Virus record (IMG/VR): IMGVR_UViG_3300009158_000247
Span: 1 to 20,613 of that record
Source of the DNA: a virus
Direction: 5' to 3' (one strand)
Length of the DNA stretch: 20,613 bases
Below the pieces are notes generated by a model, which did no database searches, had not been told where the DNA came from, and worked only from the letters and a program-made list of their open reading frames with translations. Positions 1,268 to 20,595 of this stretch are shown piece by piece. Made by a program: the position numbers and the translations under genes. The number at the start of each line of letters is the position of its first letter. The first letter of the stretch is position 1.

Positions 1268-1428
1268 TCTGTGTCTTCTTTCTTTAACGCGCCGATGAAG
1301 TGAAGAACGAGAGCTGCAATGGTGAGCCAGATCACGATCTTTTGAAGCCCACCAGATAGCGTCAAGATTGTTGTGACAGATGCAGCGATAGTCCAAATCA
1401 ACGCATGGAACTCACCCCAAAACTTCAT
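1264..1428 (-). CDS. 54-residue membrane protein, possible second holin or antiholin
   Basis: A short gene reading MKFWGEFHALIWTIAASV at its start. It has two predicted membrane segments (about residues 10-26 and 30-47) joined by the loop SGGLQK, and a charged tail KKEDTE. The ATG at 1428 overlaps the stop of the Thr-rich gene (ATGA), with AAGGAA just upstream. Its TGA overlaps the holin ATG in the same way. Being tightly coupled on both sides, it belongs to the lysis cassette. A pair of adjacent small membrane proteins is a usual holin/antiholin or pinholin arrangement. There is nothing here to say which of the two proteins forms the lesion. Confidence 0.65.
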   Translation of the reverse strand: MKFWGEFHALIWTIAASVTTILTLSGGLQKIVIWLTIAALVLHFIGALKKEDTE

Positions 1429-2795
1429 CACTTATTCCTTCGACTAGGTGCAGGGGCTACGGTCAAGAATACAGCAGATAGCGCAATCAACGCACGACGA
1501 GTTTTCACCGGCACCGTTGAGTTGAGTGGGACATAGGAGTCAGCGAAACCTTGAAAGATATTGAGTACAGATTCGAACGCTTTACGCACAGACGAAGGTG
1601 CCGATTGCACAGCTTCAACCACAGCCTCAGCCTCAGCCGGACTCAACTCCGTTGGACTGATTTCTTCAAACAATGCCACAGCCTGCTCACTCGTCACGCT
1701 GGCAAGAACTGTTGGGCTGGATACGAGTGAGGCTGCTTGGCTGGTATCCAAATCCTTTTCCAACACCTGTGTAACTAATGCTTGCACCTCAGCCTTGTCA
1801 GCCGTTCCCAGCGCGTCTAGGACGGCTACTAGCTCTTGGTTGCTGAGTGCAGGTTTAGCCTCGTCTGGGGGGCTTAGGACGCTTGTGGTGGGGTTCTCTG
1901 GGATGGTTGTGGGGGTAGGCTGTTCCGATGTTGTGGTCACATTCTCGGTCGTTGTGGTCACTTCTGCAACTGTCGTGGTTGTGGTTGACTGAGGCTCCGG
2001 TATGGGTTCTGTTGTCGTTGTTGACGGTTCGGTTGTTGTGGTTGGCGGTATATAAAGCGTCACAGGCACAGTCGAGGTCGTGGTCGTCGTCGTTGAGGTT
2101 GTGGTAGTAGATGTCGTTGTCGTTGAAGTCGTTGTTGAGGAGCTGGTAGTTGATGCGATATTTTCTTGGACTGTTGTTGTTGTTTGTAGTTCTCCCATTG
2201 TGGTTGATGGGGAGAGAGTAGATGTGGTGGACTCTGGCATCGTGGTCGTTAGGGCTGCTGCTGATTGTTGTTGTGTTGTTGTCGTAACAGACTGAACCCA
2301 CAACGACACATTCGTTATCGTCAGATTCCCTGGCTGACAACACGTATCAACCGAATACTGACGGAACGTAAACACATCCCCTTCAACCACCGGCACCGAT
2401 TTAGAACCAGCATCATTGTTCAACATCGTCAACTGGATGTAGTTCCCATTCACCGCATACTGAGGCGGGTCATACCAAGCACCATCATTAGTTTGATAAG
2501 CCCAATCAAAATCAACCGTGTTAACACCAGCAGGAATCGTGGCCTCAATCTTCACCCAATGAGACTGACCAGAACACCCACCATTATCAGCACCATGCAA
2601 CACCACCCCATTAGCAATAGTTTCAACAGACCCAGAAGCAGCACAAGACTGACTATAAACCCAACCACCAAAACCGTCAGCCTCAGCCGAAGGAACGAAA
2701 CTGAATAGCGAAACTAAAAGTGCTGGGGCTGCAATCAGCCAACGACTATGAAGTAATGATTTCAGGCGCAACGAAGGAATCCGAAACCTCGTCAT
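1428..2795 (-). CDS. Secreted, Thr-rich, host-like surface protein
   Basis: A 455-residue protein when started at the ATG at 2795. This start gives a textbook signal peptide: basic MTRFRIPSLRLKS, hydrophobic WLIAAPALLVSLFSFV, and cleavage near SAEA-D at about residue 39. An N-terminal beta-type domain follows (about 40-168) with Cys residues in SQSC, NGGC and DTCC. It resembles the jelly-roll-like domains of bacterial secreted proteins. Next comes a Thr/Ser/Pro linker of about 135 residues (171-305). A helical C-terminal domain (about 315-425) carries VLASVTSEQAVALFEEI and AVVEAVQSAPSSVRKAFE. The protein ends with a short hydrophobic segment (about 434-447) and basic APSRRNK. I associate this architecture with Acidimicrobiia surface proteins, not phage virion proteins. 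It overlaps the preceding gene by 50 bases and the next by four. The role is unknown: surface modification, exclusion or envelope disruption are all possible. Confidence 0.75.
   Translation of the reverse strand: MTRFRIPSLRLKSLLHSRWLIAAPALLVSLFSFVPSAEADGFGGWVYSQSCAASGSVETIANGVVLHGADNGGCSGQSHWVKIEATIPAGVNTVDFDWAYQTNDGAWYDPPQYAVNGNYIQLTMLNNDAGSKSVPVVEGDVFTFRQYSVDTCCQPGNLTITNVSLWVQSVTTTTQQQSAAALTTTMPESTTSTLSPSTTMGELQTTTTVQENIASTTSSSTTTSTTTTSTTTTSTTTTTTSTVPVTLYIPPTTTTEPSTTTTEPIPEPQSTTTTTVAEVTTTTENVTTTSEQPTPTTIPENPTTSVLSPPDEAKPALSNQELVAVLDALGTADKAEVQALVTQVLEKDLDTSQAASLVSSPTVLASVTSEQAVALFEEISPTELSPAEAEAVVEAVQSAPSSVRKAFESVLNIFQGFADSYVPLNSTVPVKTRRALIALSAVFLTVAPAPSRRNK
1884..2285 (-). repeat. Low-complexity Thr-codon tract (Thr-rich linker)
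   Basis: On the coding strand this is a run of ACN codons, densest at about 2060-2155, where units of TTTTS recur. It encodes the Thr/Ser/Pro linker of the secreted protein. Such tracts expand and contract by slippage, and in secreted actinobacterial proteins they are potential O-glycosylation sites. Confidence 0.85.
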
Positions 2796-2997
2796 AAATA
2801 TAACCAATACCGGCATAAATTTCGCGGAAGTTTCCGTTGTACGAAGTTTGCAACCATTGGCCTTCAATGCCAAGCGATGCTATAAAGGCTTGTCCTACTG
2901 GTTCGCTTTCTGGGAATGGCAGATTATCTATGTCATCGTTAGATACAACAATTACTTGTTGGACTTTGTTGTTTTTGATTTGTGCAAAGTGTGCCAT
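2746..2997 (-). CDS. Small tail-fibre-associated protein (MAHFA family), short form
   Basis: An 83-residue protein from the ATG at 2997, eight bases after the stop of the adhesin gene (GGAAGG upstream). It begins MAHFAQIKNNKVQQVIVVSN and contains WLQTSYNGNFREIYAGIGY followed by YDEVSDSFVAPE. This is the signature of a small protein widespread in marine and freshwater phages (MAHFAK...WKQTSYN...NYAGIGYTYD), usually beside tail-fibre genes and of undetermined function. Remembered homologues continue past the FIPPKP-like segment with about 20-40 more residues, whereas this one stops at PEIITS. The last 50 bases are shared with the signal-peptide region of the next gene. Family recognition is good; the role as a tail-tip or fibre accessory is inferred from position. 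Confidence 0.7.
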   Translation of the reverse strand: MAHFAQIKNNKVQQVIVVSNDDIDNLPFPESEPVGQAFIASLGIEGQWLQTSYNGNFREIYAGIGYIYDEVSDSFVAPEIITS

Positions 2998-7777: not shown

Positions 7778-8488
7778 CTACTCAATAACCGACAACCCAT
7801 TTCGCAAAGCCCTGAACTCTTTCAACATTGCTGAATATAAGTCTTTCCCTGATAGACCATCCCAGCGAGAAATATCTACAGGAGCATTCCACCAAGCCTC
7901 ACTCAATATCTCTGCACCAGCACGATGCTGACGTGGCTGACGTGCTTGCTTTGCGCGTGGTGCTACAGGATTAGAAGCAACCTGGACATCGAGTGTGAAT
8001 GATGAATCCAACAACTCACCGTGACCTTCATGGAACTCAAACGGCTGATCTGGTGCGTGTTGAGGGAGATAGAAAATTCGTGCAGGGTCTTTAGTCTGAG
8101 GGTCACCAACCAAACCGATACGCTCATGCAACTCAGCCCACACCACCCGCCACAACGACGCAGGCACCTTCTCCGCTAACGGCAAGACCAGGTGATAGTG
8201 AGGATCATCCAAGCGATGCGAATACGTCGAATAAGCGAACCATTCCAAACCCTCTAGTTGAGCATTGTCAAAGGCTTCGCTGTCCATGTCCACAACTAAC
8301 GCCTCAACAAAGCGAACATTACGGTTGCCTCTAGTCGTTCCAGCGTCATACTCAACAGGCGACCACAACGACCCAGAAGCCTTCTCAGCGTTCTCCTCAT
8401 GGAATGACAACAACTCCTTGAGTTGCAGCCACGACGAAGCCAAAGGCTTCGGATAAATAGACTTCACATCCTTAAATAGAACAGCCAT
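7778..8488 (-). CDS. Stand-alone primase-polymerase (AEP)-like protein
   Basis: A 236-residue soluble protein unlike its structural neighbours. It shows archaeo-eukaryotic primase features. VEALVVDMDS (61-70) gives the metal-binding D67-x-D69. FAYSTYSHR...DPHYHLVLPL (84-104) is the His-containing second motif. A WAELHERIGLVGDPQTKDPARIFYLP segment (about 117-142) has the Asp and Arg expected of the third. These are the hallmarks of plasmid and phage replicases that make primers, yet no helicase or PriCT domain follows. The rest is a basic linker (PRAKQARQPRQHR) and a short helical tail. It has the best ribosome binding site in the window (AGGAGGAGGGG) and a possible promoter upstream. It sits between gp10-like and tape measure genes, an odd place for a replication gene. 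Primase activity is inferred; DNA binding without catalysis is an alternative. Confidence 0.65.
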   Translation of the reverse strand: MAVLFKDVKSIYPKPLASSWLQLKELLSFHEENAEKASGSLWSPVEYDAGTTRGNRNVRFVEALVVDMDSEAFDNAQLEGLEWFAYSTYSHRLDDPHYHLVLPLAEKVPASLWRVVWAELHERIGLVGDPQTKDPARIFYLPQHAPDQPFEFHEGHGELLDSSFTLDVQVASNPVAPRAKQARQPRQHRAGAEILSEAWWNAPVDISRWDGLSGKDLYSAMLKEFRALRNGLSVIE

Positions 8489-11178: not shown

Positions 11179-11826
11179 CTAGTTGATTGACGCAGCACCA
11201 CGATACTGCACACCTTCAAGCGAATAGTTCACAAATGGGTTCAACGAATACACCTGACACGAATACACATCCCACAACCGTTGCTTCATATCTCGAAGAT
11301 GACGCTCATACAAAGCCCAATGAGTATCCCCAGCAACATACCCATCAACCCTGTCCTTGCCGTTCAACTGACCACAATCAGCCCCAACTAACACAATGAA
11401 CTTCGCCCCCATATACGCTGCAAGGTGCATCGCCCCATGAATGCTCGATGACCCGATAGTCAACTGGTCATACTCAACAGGCCAATCCTTGTCATGTGGA
11501 TTGAACGACACACCAGGTCTGCCGGTGCGGGTATGGAATGTCACGATCTTTGGCATGAAGCCTTGGAACTCTGCATCAGTTCCATGCTCACGCAATGGGG
11601 TAAAGACTGCGATTGACTCATCACGTCGAGCTTCTTGAATTGCGTCAGAGTGATAATGGCTGAAGCAGTAATAGTTTTTCATCCCGAAAACTGACCCAGA
11701 GAAATTGACTGCGATACTCAGTTTGTCGTCAAAGAAATCTGGTGACAAATAATCTAATGTCGCACCTGACCCGATGACATAAATTGTTTCTCCCTCATGC
11801 AAAAGGTTGTAATCCTCTAATCCCAT
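11179..11826 (-). CDS. DUF115 / MptE-like sugar-modification protein
   Basis: A 215-residue protein from the ATG at 11826, preceded by AAGGGA seven bases upstream. The longer frame to 11886 only repeats sequence inside the GT2 gene. It opens with a nucleotide-binding-like motif ETIYVIGSGATLDYLSPDFF (V-I-G-S-G-x-T/S-L-D). CFSHYHSDAIQEA and TIGSSSIHGAMHLAAYMGAK then FIVLVGADCG follow. This arrangement is that of the DUF115 / 6-hydroxymethylpterin pyrophosphokinase MptE-like fold, also found in bacterial motility-accessory and sialyltransferase-like proteins that work with nonulosonic acids. It overlaps the upstream GT2 gene by ten bases. With two glycosyltransferases beside it, a role in sugar transfer or activation is the best guess. 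The donor and acceptor are unknown. Confidence 0.6.
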   Translation of the reverse strand: MGLEDYNLLHEGETIYVIGSGATLDYLSPDFFDDKLSIAVNFSGSVFGMKNYYCFSHYHSDAIQEARRDESIAVFTPLREHGTDAEFQGFMPKIVTFHTRTGRPGVSFNPHDKDWPVEYDQLTIGSSSIHGAMHLAAYMGAKFIVLVGADCGQLNGKDRVDGYVAGDTHWALYERHLRDMKQRLWDVYSCQVYSLNPFVNYSLEGVQYRGAASIN

Positions 11827-12482
11827 CCCAAATCCCTTCGTCGTGTTAAATCCCAATGACCCGCTTCTGGTAAACCTGACTGCCAACGCATCGCATGTAA
11901 AGCCCCATTCGCAGCAAAACTGCGACGATTCTTTTCGGCTAGTTCTGGTGCCGATGAAATCGTTGACGAGTTGTCATGAACGATCCCAGCATTAGAAGTA
12001 AAAATCTCTATGTTCAAACGTGTTGCACGATCCTGAAAATCTGTGTCCTCAAAATATGCTGGCACATAACACTCTGAGAACAATCCAACCTTTGCCACTA
12101 CATTCGCACCAACCCACGCGCACGACCAACCAGGCATCGCCTCAGTCAACGTGATTGATTCAGGGTTGCAGTCCTTGTAGAAAACTTCTAGTTGTCCTGG
12201 CTCAAAGAACGCATCCGAGTTGAGGATCATCCAGCCGTCAGCGTGAGGAGTTGCTTTGATACCAATGTTCCAAGATGGTGCTACACCGAGGTTAGTTGGC
12301 ATTGACCAGACGTGATAGTTCTTGACATGGCGACGGTCAATCACCCAAGGCCAGTCATGCAGGGTGGACTGTCCACCATTGTCAATGATGATGAGTGTCT
12401 CCACGTCATAGTCAATCGACTGGAGGCACCTGTCTAGTAGGTCGTAACGATTTAAGACGGGGACGATGATGACTGGCACCAT
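11817..12482 (-). CDS. GT2-type glycosyltransferase
   Basis: A 221-residue protein. I chose the ATG at 12482 because AAGGAG lies eight bases upstream and because the conserved fold begins at once with PVIIVPVLNRYDLLDRCLQS. The nucleotide-sugar-binding strand ends in IIIDNGGQST, MPTNLGVAPSWNIGI is typical of GT-A enzymes, and MILNSDAFFEPG (about 85-96) holds the metal-binding N-S-D equivalent of DxD. A late YFEDTDFQDRATRLN carries the E-D-x-D catalytic-base region. It overlaps the GT4 gene (31 bases) and the DUF115-like gene (10 bases), so the three form one translational unit. It would transfer a single sugar from a nucleotide-sugar donor. Whether the target is a virion protein, DNA or the host envelope is not visible. 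Confidence 0.82.
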   Translation of the reverse strand: MVPVIIVPVLNRYDLLDRCLQSIDYDVETLIIIDNGGQSTLHDWPWVIDRRHVKNYHVWSMPTNLGVAPSWNIGIKATPHADGWMILNSDAFFEPGQLEVFYKDCNPESITLTEAMPGWSCAWVGANVVAKVGLFSECYVPAYFEDTDFQDRATRLNIEIFTSNAGIVHDNSSTISSAPELAEKNRRSFAANGALHAMRWQSGLPEAGHWDLTRRRDLGWD

Positions 12483-13765
12483 GCTGACAACTCCTTCATC
12501 ACAGGCTTCCACGATTGCTCATAAACGAGGTCTGCGTCATATTGGCTGGCAAAGGCCACAGCATCCTTATCCACGCCTCTGGGGGCTTCGTAGGAGGCTT
12601 TCAGGGCATCCACGATGGAAGACACAACAGGGGTGCAGAACCATGACCTTTGATGCGCATCCCAGAATGGCTGAATGTCCACAGCCCACCCAGACCCAAC
12701 CAACTCAGGCTGTGCCGTGTAGTTAGACACGATGACCCGTGTACCGCAAGCCTGAGCCTCGATGACCGGAACCCCGAAGCCCTCACCCATCGAGCAAGCC
12801 AACAGCACATCAGCTGCGGAATACAACGCAGCCAAAGCCTGCTGAGGGAAACCAGTCCGATAAACATACGGGTCACAAATCTTGTACTGCTCAGGCTTCA
12901 CACCACAAGCCTCCAAAAGATGCACCAAATTGATACCACCCATCGCACCATCACGTTCCGTGTGTAGATACAACATTGCGTCAGGATGATCTTGAGCAAA
13001 AATTGCGAACGCCAAAATGTTTTCAGCAAACGATTTACGCGAAGGGTTCGCACCCTTATTCGCAGCGTTCATCATGACAACAAACTTGTCGTCAGGAATC
13101 TCCATCAAATCACGACCCGTAACATCACCCTTCGGTGAAACAATTTTTGCTGTTGGCTTGAAAACTTTTTCTATCGCATGAGGAACATACATCGCATCTA
13201 CGCCAGCGTTCTGCAACATTTGTAAACCAAACTTTGACATCGCAATCGGTTTCACATTGTCACGCTTACACCAAGCCAAAACATTCGGAGGAATAGGAGC
13301 ATGGTCAATAGGTACCCAAGATGCAATGTTTGGTACCTGATCCAATGAGCCTGATTGCAACACCCAAACATCAAACAATGTAATCATCATTGCTTGCATA
13401 TCAAGATTGCCGTTAGCCCAATCCATCCAATGCGCAACCATGATGTCATCGCTATACGCAGACATTCCACGCGGATAAAGTTTTACACCATTCCACATTG
13501 AAGAAATACCTTCAATGCCATACATCGCATGGATCGCTACTTCGTGTTGGTCTTGGATGAGCCTTGTGACGACTTGCGCTGTTTGGGTGCCGTAGCCCGT
13601 TGGGGCGAAAGGGGCGTTGGAATACCAGAGGATTCGTAGCGCGTCGGAATTGGCAAATCTGCCAGCTCTGGCAAGTGCGCTATTCCCCTGCGGAGCAATA
13701 TCTCCGCCTCTAGGTCTGGTAACTCGACCGGTGTGTTCTTGACGATTACGAGCATTTCCCACCAT
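12452..13765 (-). CDS. GT4-type (GT-B fold) glycosyltransferase
   Basis: A 437-residue protein. The N-terminal Rossmann half begins at about residue 43 with LRILWYSNAPFAPTGYGTQT, including the Gly-rich donor/acceptor loop. The C-terminal half holds MGEGFGVPVIEAQACGTRVI (about 326-345), the E-x7-E motif of GT4 retaining enzymes (Glu328, Glu336). GAMGGINLVHLLEACGVKPE is typical of the linker. The ATG at 13765 has AAGGAG four bases upstream. The first 42 residues are low-complexity and basic and match nothing, and they coincide with another plausible reading frame. No later ATG, GTG or TTG precedes the conserved fold. The gene follows the post-capsid terminator and begins the glycan cassette, so its product may modify capsid or tail proteins, as reported for some mycobacteriophages. 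Confidence 0.82.
   Translation of the reverse strand: MVGNARNRQEHTGRVTRPRGGDIAPQGNSALARAGRFANSDALRILWYSNAPFAPTGYGTQTAQVVTRLIQDQHEVAIHAMYGIEGISSMWNGVKLYPRGMSAYSDDIMVAHWMDWANGNLDMQAMMITLFDVWVLQSGSLDQVPNIASWVPIDHAPIPPNVLAWCKRDNVKPIAMSKFGLQMLQNAGVDAMYVPHAIEKVFKPTAKIVSPKGDVTGRDLMEIPDDKFVVMMNAANKGANPSRKSFAENILAFAIFAQDHPDAMLYLHTERDGAMGGINLVHLLEACGVKPEQYKICDPYVYRTGFPQQALAALYSAADVLLACSMGEGFGVPVIEAQACGTRVIVSNYTAQPELVGSGWAVDIQPFWDAHQRSWFCTPVVSSIVDALKASYEAPRGVDKDAVAFASQYDADLVYEQSWKPVMKELSAWCQSSSSPS
13537..13755 (-). CDS. Small ORF overlapping the GT4 N-terminus, possible gene
   Basis: A 72-residue frame starting MLVIVKNTPVELPDLEAEIL and continuing LRRGIAHLPELADLPI. It looks like the small proteins phages often carry just after the capsid gene: a beta strand, then 'LxxLEAELLLxRGIA'. 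It then runs into a low-complexity basic tail over the conserved GT4 fold. Its ATG is ten bases inside GT4, with only GGTGGGAA upstream. It may be a genuine ancestral gene partly overrun by GT4, or chance. The evidence is protein character only. Confidence 0.35.
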   Translation of the reverse strand: MLVIVKNTPVELPDLEAEILLRRGIAHLPELADLPIPTRYESSGIPTPLSPQRATAPKQRKSSQGSSKTNTK

Positions 13766-13877: not shown

Positions 13878-15059
13878 TTATGGTTGGAGGAGGTGCTTAA
13901 TGTGGCTAACTTGTGGAAGATTTCCGTCAACTCTGTATGTGCTGCGGAAAGTCACTAAGCCCGTGTTGAATGCGAAGTCATCGCTGCGCTCCAACTTGAT
14001 TCCACCAACTGTGCGTACATAGTACGAAGGTAGGTGACCAACAATGACGGACTTGGTTCCAGTTGCTACGTCGACCATTGAAGGGTTTTCGTAGATTGGC
14101 TTGCCAAGAAGCATGTCTGGTGATTCCATTGAAAGAGCTGGCTGGAATACATAATTTCCAGCTGTGTCCTTCAACTTGCGAACTGCACCAATTGACTTGC
14201 CGTTCATCATCCAACCAACACCAGGAAGGTTACGTGCTGCGCCATCAAGGCTGTATAGCAAGTCAATCAAGTTGTCTGCGGTGAATGCGGTAGCAGTTCC
14301 AGCCGTGCCGCCTACTGCGCTCGCTGTCACGATGCCCTTTGGCTGGTTGGTTCCTGAACCGACTGTCAAAGCCGAACCTACTGCGTAACCAAGAGCGTTA
14401 CCAGTTTGTTCTGCCAAGAAGCCGAGGATGTCAACACCAGAGTCTTCGATAAGTTCCGTTGTCAACTGCGTCAAGAATGAGTACTTGTAAGCACCCAAGG
14501 TAACGAAGCTGTTGAACTGTGGATCGGATTCTGGAATTGCGGTTCCTTCACCTGGCAGAGTAGCTGTTGACCAGCTGAACTGCGAAGGGATTTGAAGGTT
14601 CTCGCCACCAGCGGTGTTCAAAATCGTTGCTACTTGCAAGATCGGTGCAACAAGACGAGCCTGTGCAATTACTTGGTTGTAGAACGAGGTTGGTACAGGT
14701 GCGCCTGCTGAACCCTTGGTGATGTCACGACGTTCAAATGTGTGTGAACGCTTTTCGCCCATAACAAGTGAACGCAAGAACGAAGCATCATCTGCAACTG
14801 GTGCAGCTGATTCCTGTGGACGTGCCTGTGAAGCGATGTCACGGGTTGCTGCATCGAGGCGAAGTTCGCGAGCTTCGTCTTCACGAAGTTTTGCGATGGT
14901 CTGTCCACGCTCGTCCAGTTCCTTAGAGATGCGCTCATAGGTTTGGTTTTCTTCTGCTGAGAGGTCACGCTTTTCTGCGGTGGCTTTGTCCAAGATTGAC
15001 TTGGCTTCTTCCCATGCACGATTGCGAATCTCAACCTGACGGTCAATATATTCTTTCAT
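13878..15059 (-). CDS. HK97-fold major capsid protein
   Basis: A 393-residue protein. Residues 1 to about 95 form a charged helical delta (scaffold) domain (EIRNRAWEEAKSILDKATAE, then SKELDERGQTIAKLRED). The linker FLRSLVMGEKRSHTFERRDI is the likely region cut by the prohead protease. The mature fold begins around KGSAGAPVPTSFYNQVIAQA, with an E-loop-like LQIPSQFSWSTATLPGEG and the A-domain helix SFLTQLTTELIEDSGVDILG. GWMMNGKSIGAVRKLKD, then YENPSMVDVA and a beta-rich end, complete the pattern. GAGAAGGA precedes the ATG by nine bases. It follows the protease with a 134-base gap and is followed by a strong terminator, matching the need for very high expression. Confidence 0.93.
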   Translation of the reverse strand: MKEYIDRQVEIRNRAWEEAKSILDKATAEKRDLSAEENQTYERISKELDERGQTIAKLREDEARELRLDAATRDIASQARPQESAAPVADDASFLRSLVMGEKRSHTFERRDITKGSAGAPVPTSFYNQVIAQARLVAPILQVATILNTAGGENLQIPSQFSWSTATLPGEGTAIPESDPQFNSFVTLGAYKYSFLTQLTTELIEDSGVDILGFLAEQTGNALGYAVGSALTVGSGTNQPKGIVTASAVGGTAGTATAFTADNLIDLLYSLDGAARNLPGVGWMMNGKSIGAVRKLKDTAGNYVFQPALSMESPDMLLGKPIYENPSMVDVATGTKSVIVGHLPSYYVRTVGGIKLERSDDFAFNTGLVTFRSTYRVDGNLPQVSHIKHLLQP

Positions 15060-15193: not shown

Positions 15194-15196
15194 CTA
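15178..15196. repeat. Tandem 8-bp direct repeat, 11-bp period
   Basis: CAGTACTA occurs twice, at 15178-15185 and 15189-15196, separated by AAA. Each copy contains the palindrome AGTACT. The period of about one helical turn would place two sites on the same face of the helix. It covers the stop codon of the protease gene, upstream of the capsid gene. Confidence 0.6.
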
Positions 15197-16858
15197 GAAA
15201 TTCTTGATTAGTTCAAGATGCTTGGCCATCAGGCCAAGAGTCGCAGGTGGTTCAGTTGGTGTTGGCTCCAACTTCGCAACAGTTTCACGCAACAACGCAC
15301 CCTGATCGGATGACAAAGTTTTCCCTGATTCCAGAACCAAGATTGCGTCAGCAAGACGATCAGCATCAACACCAGTACGAGTAGCAAGCGCATCAAAGCT
15401 GCGAACCTGTGCAGATGTTGCTGAATACGCTGGGAACCCTGTCACAACAGAAACTTCAAATAGTTTGATTTGACGGAGTTCACGGTTCATTCCGTCTTCA
15501 GACCAACGGTCACCACCAGAAGGAACAGTAAACCCGAACGACATCGAGGTCACGTCACCACGCTTCATCAAAATTGATAGGTCTTTACCCACAGAAGTTT
15601 CAGGCAAATCAGCCGAAGCCAACAAACCCTTTGAATCTTCTTGCAGGCGCAAAGTCTTTGCGCGGGTCGTAGCCAACAACATTGATGAGTCATGATTCAT
15701 GTACATCCGAATATTATTTCGTGCCTTCAACGAACGTGCGAATGCACCAGGCGCAATAGTTTCAATGAATGGCAATGGTTCAGATGGTGAGTTGAATACA
15801 GCTGCATAACCTGTGAACGACATACCGTCACCGGACTCGTTAGCGCGTAACTCAAAATCGGATACGGTAACTCTGCGTGTTTCAACCTGTTCAGTCATAT
15901 AAGAAACATTACCAAAGTCCTGTTCACGCTGACGATGGAACGCTGGTGCTTCACGCAAGACAGGCATATCACCAGATTTGATTCGCTTTGGGTCAAGAGT
16001 TTTGATACCTAAATCAAAATATGCTCGACGTGCAGCAGGGTCATTATCTATCGCTAGAACCACAGTCTGCTCAGACAGAATGTCCGCAGCCTTGTTGCCT
16101 TTGTATTCAGGCGTTGGGATGCTCAAGTCTTCGTTGAACTCAATGTCATCGTATTTAACTCCGGCATCAGCCAACTCTGCAACAGTCTTATCTTCTTCGT
16201 CTTCGCCACGACCAGTCACAATATAGATAAAGAACTTCTCATAAAGAGCGTTCACATAGTCAATGTTTTTTTGAATGCCCTCACCGCCAGCAAGCAATGT
16301 TCCATCAATATCAACGATGACCACATCTTGAGCATTGGCAGTTCGTTGCGAACCAGTCTGATCGTCTTTTATGGCCTGTGCTTTACGAGCAAACCAAGTC
16401 ATCGCAGGTTCAGGGTCAAGTGGATCAATTCCCCAAAGATAGAACGCGACAGCACCAGCACCAGGGAAACCCTCATCATCAGCCTCAGAGTTCTGTGAAG
16501 CATCCAAATCAACTAGATGACGTTGACCCCAAGCGTTTGCTCGAATCACCTTGTCCTCAGTAATTTGACCGTCAGCCATCTGGCGAGCCTCACGAATAGT
16601 GCGCTCCACCAAACCATCACCACCCAAACCTTGAACGTTATATTCCAAACCTTTAGCAGCTGCATCTTGAATATATGAAGGCAGATTCAAATCAACTGCA
16701 CGTTCCCCACCAGGAGCCATATCCTCAGCCAACGAAACTGCAACCATCTGATCTATCGCATCCTGTTTTGATTGGTGGCATCCCATGACTTCGCCATCTT
16801 CCTTTTCAACAGCCCAACCTGAACAATCAGGATTCTTATCTGAAATAAAATATGGCAT
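15194..16858 (-). CDS. Prohead protease fused to an internal HAD phosphatase domain
   Basis: A 554-residue protein from the ATG at 16858 (TAATG overlap with the upstream stop). It has three parts. Residues 1 to about 165: a short head-gene domain starting MPYFISDKNPDCSGWAVEKE, then GEVMGCHQSKQDAIDQMVAV, a motif known from phage portal/protease-region proteins, followed by a helical region. About 178-290: a HAD-type phosphatase with all four motifs, namely VVIVDIDGTLLAG (Asp183, Asp185), YIVTGRGE (Thr215), YKGNKA (Lys253/Lys256) and VVLAIDNDPAARRAYFD (Asp271, Asp273). About 325-554: an HK97/S78 prohead protease with SFTGYAAVFNSPSEP, His389 in MYMNHDSS, Ser440 in TSMSFGF and FEVSVVTGFPAY. The protease matures the capsid. 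Most S78 proteases are near 200 residues, so this is greatly extended. The job of the phosphatase is unknown. Confidence 0.88.
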   Translation of the reverse strand: MPYFISDKNPDCSGWAVEKEDGEVMGCHQSKQDAIDQMVAVSLAEDMAPGGERAVDLNLPSYIQDAAAKGLEYNVQGLGGDGLVERTIREARQMADGQITEDKVIRANAWGQRHLVDLDASQNSEADDEGFPGAGAVAFYLWGIDPLDPEPAMTWFARKAQAIKDDQTGSQRTANAQDVVIVDIDGTLLAGGEGIQKNIDYVNALYEKFFIYIVTGRGEDEEDKTVAELADAGVKYDDIEFNEDLSIPTPEYKGNKAADILSEQTVVLAIDNDPAARRAYFDLGIKTLDPKRIKSGDMPVLREAPAFHRQREQDFGNVSYMTEQVETRRVTVSDFELRANESGDGMSFTGYAAVFNSPSEPLPFIETIAPGAFARSLKARNNIRMYMNHDSSMLLATTRAKTLRLQEDSKGLLASADLPETSVGKDLSILMKRGDVTSMSFGFTVPSGGDRWSEDGMNRELRQIKLFEVSVVTGFPAYSATSAQVRSFDALATRTGVDADRLADAILVLESGKTLSSDQGALLRETVAKLEPTPTEPPATLGLMAKHLELIKNF

Positions 16859-17124
16859 TAGAACGGCTGCACAATCAGAGAACAAGTAAGCGAACTTCCA
16901 GCAATTCCAAAGAGCTGTTCGGTGGTATTCAAAACAAAATACAAAGTTGCTTCAGGATCAAGATGTAAACCAGTTGAAGTTGTAACAGCAGAACCACCCA
17001 AATAAATAACCGAGTTCGCCTGATGGTTATTGTTATGAATTGTCACCTTCACAGGATTGATAGGTGCATCAGCCAGCAACACAGGCGTTGTGTTCACCGT
17101 GTAAACATAAGAACTCAAAGTCAT
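16858..17124 (-). CDS. Small head-region protein, unknown function
   Basis: An 88-residue protein rich in Thr, Val and Asn, with beta-strand alternation (TLSSYVYTVNTTPVLLADAP, then VIYLGGSAVTTSTGLHLDPE, then NTTEQLFGIAGSSLTCSLIV). No membrane segment is evident. It overlaps the portal stop by four bases (ATGA) and the protease start by one, so it belongs to the head operon. Small beta proteins at this location occur in other actinobacteria phages and could be decoration or head accessory proteins. I do not recognise a named family. The coding status is well supported by the overlaps. Confidence 0.7.
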   Translation of the reverse strand: MTLSSYVYTVNTTPVLLADAPINPVKVTIHNNNHQANSVIYLGGSAVTTSTGLHLDPEATLYFVLNTTEQLFGIAGSSLTCSLIVQPF

Positions 17125-18470
17125 GTCACCTCATAAGCAGACGGAGGATCATCAGGTGCCACAGTTGAAATCTGTTGCAACTGACTCGAAGGCAAACCAG
17201 TATGAGCCACAGCTGGTAAACCAACCATCGCCAAAACCTCAGCCGGATCAAAGCCAGTCAAAATCAACCGTTGCGCAATCTCAGCCTTGGACTGCATCTC
17301 AGCCAAGTTCGCAGCATTCACATCCACATTGGCAAGCGAAACTCTATAACCATCGCCACCCTCAACAGGAGCCATATCCTCAAGACGATGAACATCATTG
17401 ATTGATAAGAAGCCTGACTGAAGGCCTGTTGAGAACGCTGTGTAACGCGAAGCCTGATCGCCACGAAGCAGGCCGTCCACGTTGAACTTCATGAATGCTC
17501 GACCAGCAAGCAAGCGTGAATAGCCTTCCTCAATTTTTTCTATGTACGGACGCAAAGTGTGAGTCACATACTGGATGCCGTTCTGTTCAACGGAGGCATA
17601 CGACATCGCACCAGGCGTAGTCACACCCAGCATTGATGGAGGCACACGGAAGATACGGGCAATCTCCTCAACAGCGAAACGACGTGACTCCAAGAACTGT
17701 GCAGAATCATTGTCCACAGTTGTCTTCGTGAACTTAGCCCCACCGAACAACACACCAGGACGATGCGAACGACGCAAACCCTTGTGGCCTTCCTCGAACC
17801 CTGACACCAAATCCTTAGCCTGTTCACGGGTCAGGTTGCCAGGGAACTCGATGATGCCAGAAGCTGAAGAACCTTGACCGAAGAATCGTGCAGCGAACTC
17901 CTCCAACGCTTTAGCCAACCCCAAGTTTTCTTTGATGAGTTCAATGCGTGAGCGTCCACGCAAATCACCAGGCAAACGAAGTTCGGTGATATGAATCATG
18001 TTGTCAGCTGTGATTACATCACGGCCTTCATAAATGTAAATCGGACGACGAGTCTCACGGTCACGACTGCACTCAACACGCTCAGGGTTCAAAACAACCA
18101 AACCAGCAATACCTTGATCGTCGCGCAAGATGCGGGTGAACGAGTTGCCGTTCAACATCAACGAAACAAGAACCTGTTGGAAATGCTCGATGCGGGTCAC
18201 ACCAGATTCAGGGTTATCCAACCAGTCTGGTCGTGGACGGAACGGACGACGAGTTCCATCAAGACGTAAGAATGTGTCAACAGGAAGAGTTGAAATTGAA
18301 TCTGAAATCATGCGCACACACGCATAGACCGCTTCAATTTTTAGTGAGTCTTGTTGCGTGACTGTTGTGCCTGATGCGGTAGTGAAACTGAACGTGTCAC
18401 CTGAAGCAAACAAATTTTGGAACGAAACCGCACGTTCCTCGTTGCCACCACCCAACAGCCTTGACAACAT
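17121..18470 (-). CDS. Portal protein, HK97 type
   Basis: A 449-residue protein with the portal hallmarks. LKIEAVYACVRMISDSISTL, then PVDTFLRLDG, forms the N-terminal wing. A middle with SLMLNGNSFTRILRDDQGIA and LVVLNPERVECSRDR is the conserved 'G(N/D)xYxxxxR..G...L..L.P..v' block. The GFEEGHKGLRRSHRPGVLFG and RIFRVPPSMLGV segments lie in the stem/crown part. It makes the dodecameric ring through which DNA enters and leaves the capsid. AAAGG lies eight bases before the ATG, which overlaps the stop of the 49-residue gene as TAATG. Length and position between terminase and protease are standard. Confidence 0.92.
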   Translation of the reverse strand: MLSRLLGGGNEERAVSFQNLFASGDTFSFTTASGTTVTQQDSLKIEAVYACVRMISDSISTLPVDTFLRLDGTRRPFRPRPDWLDNPESGVTRIEHFQQVLVSLMLNGNSFTRILRDDQGIAGLVVLNPERVECSRDRETRRPIYIYEGRDVITADNMIHITELRLPGDLRGRSRIELIKENLGLAKALEEFAARFFGQGSSASGIIEFPGNLTREQAKDLVSGFEEGHKGLRRSHRPGVLFGGAKFTKTTVDNDSAQFLESRRFAVEEIARIFRVPPSMLGVTTPGAMSYASVEQNGIQYVTHTLRPYIEKIEEGYSRLLAGRAFMKFNVDGLLRGDQASRYTAFSTGLQSGFLSINDVHRLEDMAPVEGGDGYRVSLANVDVNAANLAEMQSKAEIAQRLILTGFDPAEVLAMVGLPAVAHTGLPSSQLQQISTVAPDDPPSAYEVT

Positions 18471-20565: not shown

Positions 20566-20579
20566 GACCCCAGTGTAGG

Positions 20580-20595
20580 CGGTAGGGGACTACCG
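20580..20595. repeat. Short inverted repeat upstream of the terminase genes
   Basis: CGGTAG-GGGA-CTACCG, a 6-bp perfect stem with a 4-base loop, lies 15 bases before the small-terminase ATG in the only non-coding stretch at the right edge. No U-tract follows on either strand, so it is not a typical terminator. It could be an operator or part of a packaging (cos/pac) site, which is often near terS. Confidence 0.4.

Follow-up and report, generated by a model that had tools for sequence, protein, structure and literature searches.

The window, by which is meant here the whole 20,613-nucleotide stretch that was analysed, is a 20.6-kb viral record (IMG/VR IMGVR_UViG_3300009158_000247) whose minus strand carries the head and tail genes in a cluster of standard siphophage type. 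Along that strand the genes run in the order TerS, TerL, portal, a small gene, the polyprotein gene that is the subject of this study, the major capsid protein (MCP) and three glycosyltransferase or MptE-like genes, after which come the neck and tail genes. The polyprotein ORF starts at the ATG at 16858, which overlaps the stop of the upstream gene (TAATG), and runs down to 15194. The features discussed below, listed in the direction of transcription, are as follows:

17121..18470, minus strand: portal protein (PF04860, E=5e-81)
15194..16858, minus strand: complete polyprotein ORF of 554 aa, built as module A - module B - HAD - S78 protease
16703..16858, minus strand: module A (aa 1-52), the constant N-terminal module (local HMM in 143 loci)
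16700..16702, minus strand: Arg53 codon, putative A/B processing site (PGGER/AVDL)
16361..16690, minus strand: module B (aa 57-166), predicted as all helix (pLDDT 93.5) and in relatives similar to phrog_2859
16343..16345, minus strand: Arg172 codon, putative B/HAD processing site (GSQR/TANA)
15980..16333, minus strand: the capless, PNKP-like phosphatase module HAD (aa 176-293), with D183, D185, T215, R217, K253 and D271
15932..15934, minus strand: Arg309 codon, putative HAD/S78 processing site (AFHR/QREQ), the Arg before the internal Met
15906..15911, minus strand: TAATGT, resembling a -10 element (a TANNNT at -13 relative to the internal ATG, with TGg in front of it)
15896..15898, minus strand: Met321 codon, the internal ATG and putative leaderless start codon for a protease of 234 aa
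15389..15874, minus strand: S78 prohead protease domain (aa 329-490), with H389 and S440 (profile matches; Foldseek to T4 gp21, 5jbl)
13878..15059, minus strand: MCP with delta domain (PF05065 from aa 119)
14727..14729, minus strand: MCP Arg111 codon (FERR/DITKGS), predicted delta-domain cleavage site

Some other parts of the window deserve brief mention. Between the MCP and neck genes lie two glycosyltransferases and an MptE-like protein (11179-13765, minus strand), and the same place is occupied by glycosyltransferases in Pontimonas phage phiPsal1 and most relatives, which suggests glycosylation of virion or DNA. A 236-aa ORF with no Pfam match (7778-8488, minus strand) has a primase- or VirE-like look (VVDMDSEAFD...YHLVLPL) and is flanked by tail genes and by the tape measure gene, which is an unusual setting for a replication-type protein; close to the end of the tail cluster the ORF at 1428-2873 (minus strand) is surface-like and contains long Thr-rich repeats (STTTTSTTTT).

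That the polyprotein contains an intact S78 protease with His389 and Ser440, as had been proposed, is borne out by matches to PF04586 over aa 334-488 (E=1e-43; 149.5 bits against a cut-off of 21) and to the NCBIfam model proheadase_HK97 (TIGR01543; E=9e-34; 116.6 bits against a cut-off of 59). The T4 protease gp21 (5jbl) is a Foldseek match for this domain, and its position between the portal and MCP genes follows the HK97-type order. AlphaFold2, run with an alignment of homologues, gives pLDDT values mostly of 84-95 for S78 and low ones for the linkers, confidence in the full-length model being low also in module B and around aa 475-490. Module A is modelled as strand-strand-strand-helix and has a weak DUF2188 match in the relatives L038 and L042. 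No PDB match was found for the fold of module B, an all-helical domain by confident prediction (pLDDT 93.5), which has invariant R64-H65, G86 and W93-G94 (numbering of alignment A4) and is found outside proteases too.

Ahead of the protease the polyprotein carries an intact HAD phosphatase domain, about which very little doubt is left. The original prediction was that all four HAD motifs occur in order, and so they do (DIDGT at aa 183-187, VTGRG at 214-218, K253 and K256, AIDNDP at 269-274), the assignment being confirmed by profile and structure comparisons: phrog_415 ('polynucleotide kinase') matches aa 176-292 at E=4e-13, the best solved relative when the HAD family profile is compared with the PDB is clostridial Pnkp1 (4xrp, E=1.5e-6), and a Foldseek comparison of the AlphaFold2 model of this region (pLDDT about 89-98) with HAD structures gives E about 1e-4 and a Rossmann-like core fold. 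It had also been described as lying inside the protease polypeptide, which is correct in that both share one ORF but not if taken to mean within the protease fold; profile matches and AlphaFold2 alike put the HAD ahead of S78, joined to it by a linker, and thereby rule out an insertion into the S78 fold.

Conservation of the motifs was assessed over 107 aligned homologues. Motif I (DxDxT; D183, D185, T187) is present in 105, the other two being truncated fragments, and at motif II (T215) 106 have T or S; R217 of the (S/T)GR sequence is invariant. For motif III, K253 is found in 100/107, and five apparent exceptions merely have the Lys shifted in the alignment, while at motif IV D271 is D in 97 and E in 9 and is followed by an invariant Asn, so that the motif reads (D/E)N(D/N), i.e. 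one acid plus D273, rather than DD. Pairwise dN/dS values for the HAD, which is thus under purifying selection, are 0.02-0.11, about as low as for the rest of the protein, and the catalytic residues are kept down to 35% identity, also in stand-alone versions. The claim that the domain is no decayed relic thus holds up well, with motifs I and II retained in 105-106 of the 107 homologues.

As to what kind of phosphatase this might be, the domain shares with the PNKP-type 3'-phosphatases (T4 Pnk/PseT, clostridial Pnkp1, PF25109) the DxDGT and (S/T)GR motifs, the Lys and the first Asp of motif IV; it differs in having no kinase domain and none of the T4 insertions, in its size (about 116 aa, capless), in its fusion to a head protease and in having DN at motif IV where PNKP has DD. 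T4 Pnkp 3'-phosphatase (5uj0) is among the best Foldseek matches (target TM 0.66), but in fold the LNS2 HADs of lipin and Nir2 match about equally well. When the window protein was searched alone no Pfam model exceeded its cut-off over the HAD; in particular Pfam HAD_PNKP (PF25109) did not match it, although 6 of 14 relatives did at E<=0.01 (best 9e-6). Among the matches listed for isolate phages, HAD queries found polynucleotide kinase or similar phosphatase genes only, and a scan of 84,980 genomes for cellular homologues gave just one partial match. On its sequence characters the domain would not be filed as a PNKP member, since it fails the Pfam PNKP model, lacks a kinase and lacks DD. Because the fold is capless, it is most likely a phosphohydrolase acting on a large or exposed substrate, and on the strength of the PNKP resemblance our best guess at a leading candidate would be nucleic-acid 3' ends. 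That a nucleic-acid 3'-phosphatase activity should be its main role is nonetheless a tentative proposal, falling well short of an even chance.

More than 100 related proteins were found in public viral contigs, and local profile HMMs built for each segment were mapped over 189 loci, which had been fetched by likeness to the window's protein so that counts among them are not frequencies in nature. Between A and S78 there is a set of about seven modules: C (with HiPIP-like Cys), TUD (PF11160), B, HAD, G (PF19141), C2 (Cys) and DPS (ferritin, PF00210). The 113 distinct ORFs show 20 complete module orders, 16 of which include HAD. In five cases identical S78 domains are preceded by different module orders, pairs on identical S78 including A-B-HAD with A-C-B-HAD, A-B-HAD with A-C-B-G-HAD, and A-C-B-G with A-HAD-B-G; in the HAD tree, too, HADs group across architectures. 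It is thus very probable that the region is a modular cassette in which HAD is one of several interchangeable modules placed ahead of S78, and the modules are, to judge by these comparisons, swapped at a high rate between closely related phages. The original prediction had taken the HAD-protease fusion to be something for which no standard head module is known. Unusual it certainly is, there being no fusion of this kind in 50,697 isolate phage records and no isolate protein covered beyond about 60% by full-length queries, but it is not a one-off, being one cassette in a shuffled set; the proposed search of viral contigs found HAD-S78 fusions in dozens of independent contigs. As for the literature, where subscription papers were searched incompletely, no description was found of a prohead protease that carries a fused HAD or Dps.

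It might be supposed that an accidental fusion of two genes had arisen as an assembly artefact, or that the insert is decaying. Nothing was found in favour of this and its probability is negligible, as such fusions recur in independent contigs from many samples, with the low dN/dS and intact motifs already described, and both possibilities can be regarded as ruled out.

The HAD also occurs outside the fusion. In L134 and L136-L138 it is fused, together with module B, after the portal domain rather than to the protease; in L143, L144, L151 and L152 it is a separate gene between S78 and MCP; in L092, L097, L120 and L130 it shares with other modules a gene that immediately precedes a separate S78; and in L165, L177, L183 and L187 a stand-alone HAD gene stands beside a DPS gene. 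Of 120 loci, 61 have the HAD somewhere between the portal and MCP genes, and many of the remainder are truncated contigs. In L104 (1355-3433), L150, L170, L173, L174 and L181 the fusion includes a Dps/ferritin domain (PF00210), placed between HAD and protease. On the evidence of gene content the predicted Dps and HAD functions travel together across relatives, and the head appears as the common denominator of the HAD contexts, with Dps as the recurring partner.

These contexts bear on two other views of what the N-terminal modules are for. One is that they form a scaffolding or targeting arm that is cut away with the delta domains and leaves the head, any HAD activity being incidental or confined to the period before assembly. 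The acidic linkers and helical module B do resemble scaffold-like material, and propeptides cut by prohead proteases are generally expected to exit the head (PMC10052503), but a mere arm would hardly account for catalytic residues kept to such low identity and in stand-alone HADs, nor for a Dps/ferritin domain among the other modules; furthermore, many relatives lack HAD or lack B, so no single module is obligatory. We regard this view as unlikely, though it deserves to be kept in mind. The other is that the HAD is freed before or outside assembly to act in the cytoplasm on nucleotides, RNA or host phosphoproteins, the fusion serving to ensure late expression. Stand-alone HAD genes in other phages would fit, as would the action of several HAD-III relatives on small or lipid substrates; against it, HADs recur in association with head proteins (protease, portal, or the gap between protease and MCP) and not with metabolism genes, and the Arg sites now to be described suit the head protease rather than a cytoplasmic one. 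It too seems rather improbable.

The module junctions are marked by arginine. Against a background Arg frequency of 6.3%, an Arg stands at a fixed register before module B in 67/67 cases and before module C in 10/10, and lies 12 aa before the internal Met, ahead of S78, in 57/57; an Arg 11 aa before the HAD nucleophile occurs in 45 of 48 protease-fused HADs as compared with 4 of 27 that are stand-alone or N-terminal. At the register of the junction between delta domain and mature MCP it is found in 55 of 58 MCPs. The codons used are mixed (CGT, CGC, CGA, CGG, AGA and AGG), and it follows that the junction Arg is selected as protein and not as DNA; a role for it as a DNA recombination motif is accordingly disfavoured. 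In the fused portals the Arg before the HAD is absent (3/3), so release of the HAD is not needed everywhere.

A junction Arg agrees with the known basic P1 preference of an HK97-type protease: in the HK97-like phage phi12, cleavage of the capsid protein takes place after R128 and that of the related Ccm after K87, although for Ccm the authors note that another protease might be the cutter (PMC8569155). It therefore seems fairly likely that the S78 protease would cut its own N-terminal string after Arg residues, as it would the capsid protein, although part of the Arg invariance may reflect recent common ancestry of the linkers. The earlier suggestion that the HAD is released by self-cleavage is in this sense plausible, the support being the invariance of Arg at the module boundaries as read from sequences.

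A second signal lies within the coding sequence. In 52 of 53 distinct sequences a TANNNT element begins at exactly -13 relative to the internal ATG, as against 2 of 842 other in-frame ATGs in the same genes, and over 5000 synonymous recodings of 51 sequences it appeared at -13 in 19.7 of them on average and never in more than 32, the observed figure being 50/51. Although the codons whose third base falls at -13 specify Gly, Ala, Val, Thr or Asp, this base is T in 51/51, and most sequences have TG ahead of the element (T at -16 and G at -15, each in 82%). Extended -10 promoters are likewise preceded by TG. An SD-like tetramer precedes the internal start in only 1 of 56 members of the window's clade, which rules out a Shine-Dalgarno-driven start there; SD-like sites do precede the internal Met in other clades (L100, L140, L149, L157, L160, L164, L167, L178, L180), and for MCP, portal and TerL most relatives have an SD. 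In 64% of relatives the start of TerS, the likely head of the operon, has a TANNNT at -12, and an SD is almost absent there; upstream of TerS, at about 20566-20580 of the window, there is likely to be a leaderless late promoter. A TANNNT about 12 bp before the start is known to mark bacterial leaderless genes, the degenerate form TAnnnT being typical of Actinobacteria (PMC3160421).

In split relatives (L097, L120, L130) the separate S78 gene begins at the equivalent Met. An internal start is not universal, as the DPS-containing fusions and phiPsal1 have no internal Met before S78, but in this gene it is probably used, judging from these sequence signals, so that a 234-aa protease would be made besides the long form. 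If the protease has its own start in this way, a one-to-one ratio of phosphatase to protease, which had been assumed at the outset, no longer follows and must be considered unlikely.

An explanation at the level of DNA would treat the Arg codons and TANNNT as recombination joints, or as relics of gene starts kept by module exchange. Exchange does occur at these boundaries, and the internal Met is indeed where separate S78 genes start in split relatives. With six Arg codons in use, however, it is not the DNA that is conserved; TANNNT is fixed at one offset far beyond synonymous expectation while its flanks and encoded residues vary; and the MCP, which is outside the shuffling, has the same Arg. 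This explanation strikes us as highly improbable.

The reading we prefer, to which as a whole we give a little more than even credence, is that the gene encodes a self-processing cargo polyprotein together with a separately started protease, packaging, cleavage and the phosphatase substrate being what we infer. A constant N-terminal module would be followed by a changeable cargo string (here B and HAD) and then by the S78 protease, through which the full-length product would be built into the prohead; the protease would then cut after Arg residues and so free the HAD and other modules within the head, while the internal start would supply a larger amount of protease alone. In the last and least certain step the freed HAD would remove phosphates from nucleic-acid ends, either the 3'-phosphates of packaged or incoming DNA, or those of RNA after infection. 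Considered by itself, the proposition that the HAD is carried in or into the prohead also seems slightly favoured. Somewhat short of an even chance is the broader proposal that uncultured, probably actinobacterial phages may use their capsid protease as a plug-in carrier, whose interchangeable enzymes, set apart by Arg cleavage sites resembling that of the capsid protein, would be cut out in the prohead and delivered with the DNA and whose protease would come also from a nested leaderless transcript; the plug-in modules, on the same tentative footing, would comprise the HAD phosphatase, Dps/ferritin, Cys-rich and Tudor-like modules and others of no assigned function.

Were this correct, the small siphophage-type head, classically thought to hold little but DNA, would gain an evolvable route for loading enzymes, which would be fused to the very maturation protease that then cuts them out. 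Puzzling N-terminal domains on head maturation proteases would be explained, a list of candidate packaged proteins would become available for phages of uncultured aquatic bacteria, and a PNKP-like phosphatase and a Dps-like protein would be linked to packaged or incoming DNA. Capsids could also be loaded with protein cargo after a natural model, and a promoter hidden in coding sequence is predicted.

Among known systems, the HK97-family prohead proteases (PF04586, MEROPS S78, TIGR01543, PHROG 80) share with the window the protease domain with its catalytic His and Ser, the order portal-protease-MCP and an MCP with a delta domain; to these the window's clade adds exchangeable enzyme modules and Arg-marked junctions. 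PHROG 80 ('head maturation protease') already covers module A plus protease, and phiPsal1 (MG835450), the nearest isolate, matches positions 1-431 of its 607. That phage has the order A-C-B-S78 and the same gene neighbourhood, glycosyltransferases included, but its protease has no HAD, and the leaderless-type internal start of the window's clade is absent from it. In T4 and SPN3US the prohead protease trims internal head (ejection) proteins that are packaged with the DNA (PMC10052503); in those phages each cargo protein has a gene of its own and a propeptide, whereas here cargo and protease share one polypeptide. The polyvalent proteins of Iyer et al. 2017 (PMC5512222) are likewise shuffled multidomain proteins among late head genes, and the present family resembles them in that its members combine several unrelated domains in varying ways and have their genes among those for the virion. 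The text of that paper contains no 'phosphatase', 'polynucleotide kinase', 'Dps' or 'Tudor', and has 'prohead protease' in its reference list only. In polyvalent proteins a peptidase is predicted to release packaged effectors, and that peptidase is mainly zincin-like (PMC5512222), whereas here the processing enzyme would be the capsid protease itself.
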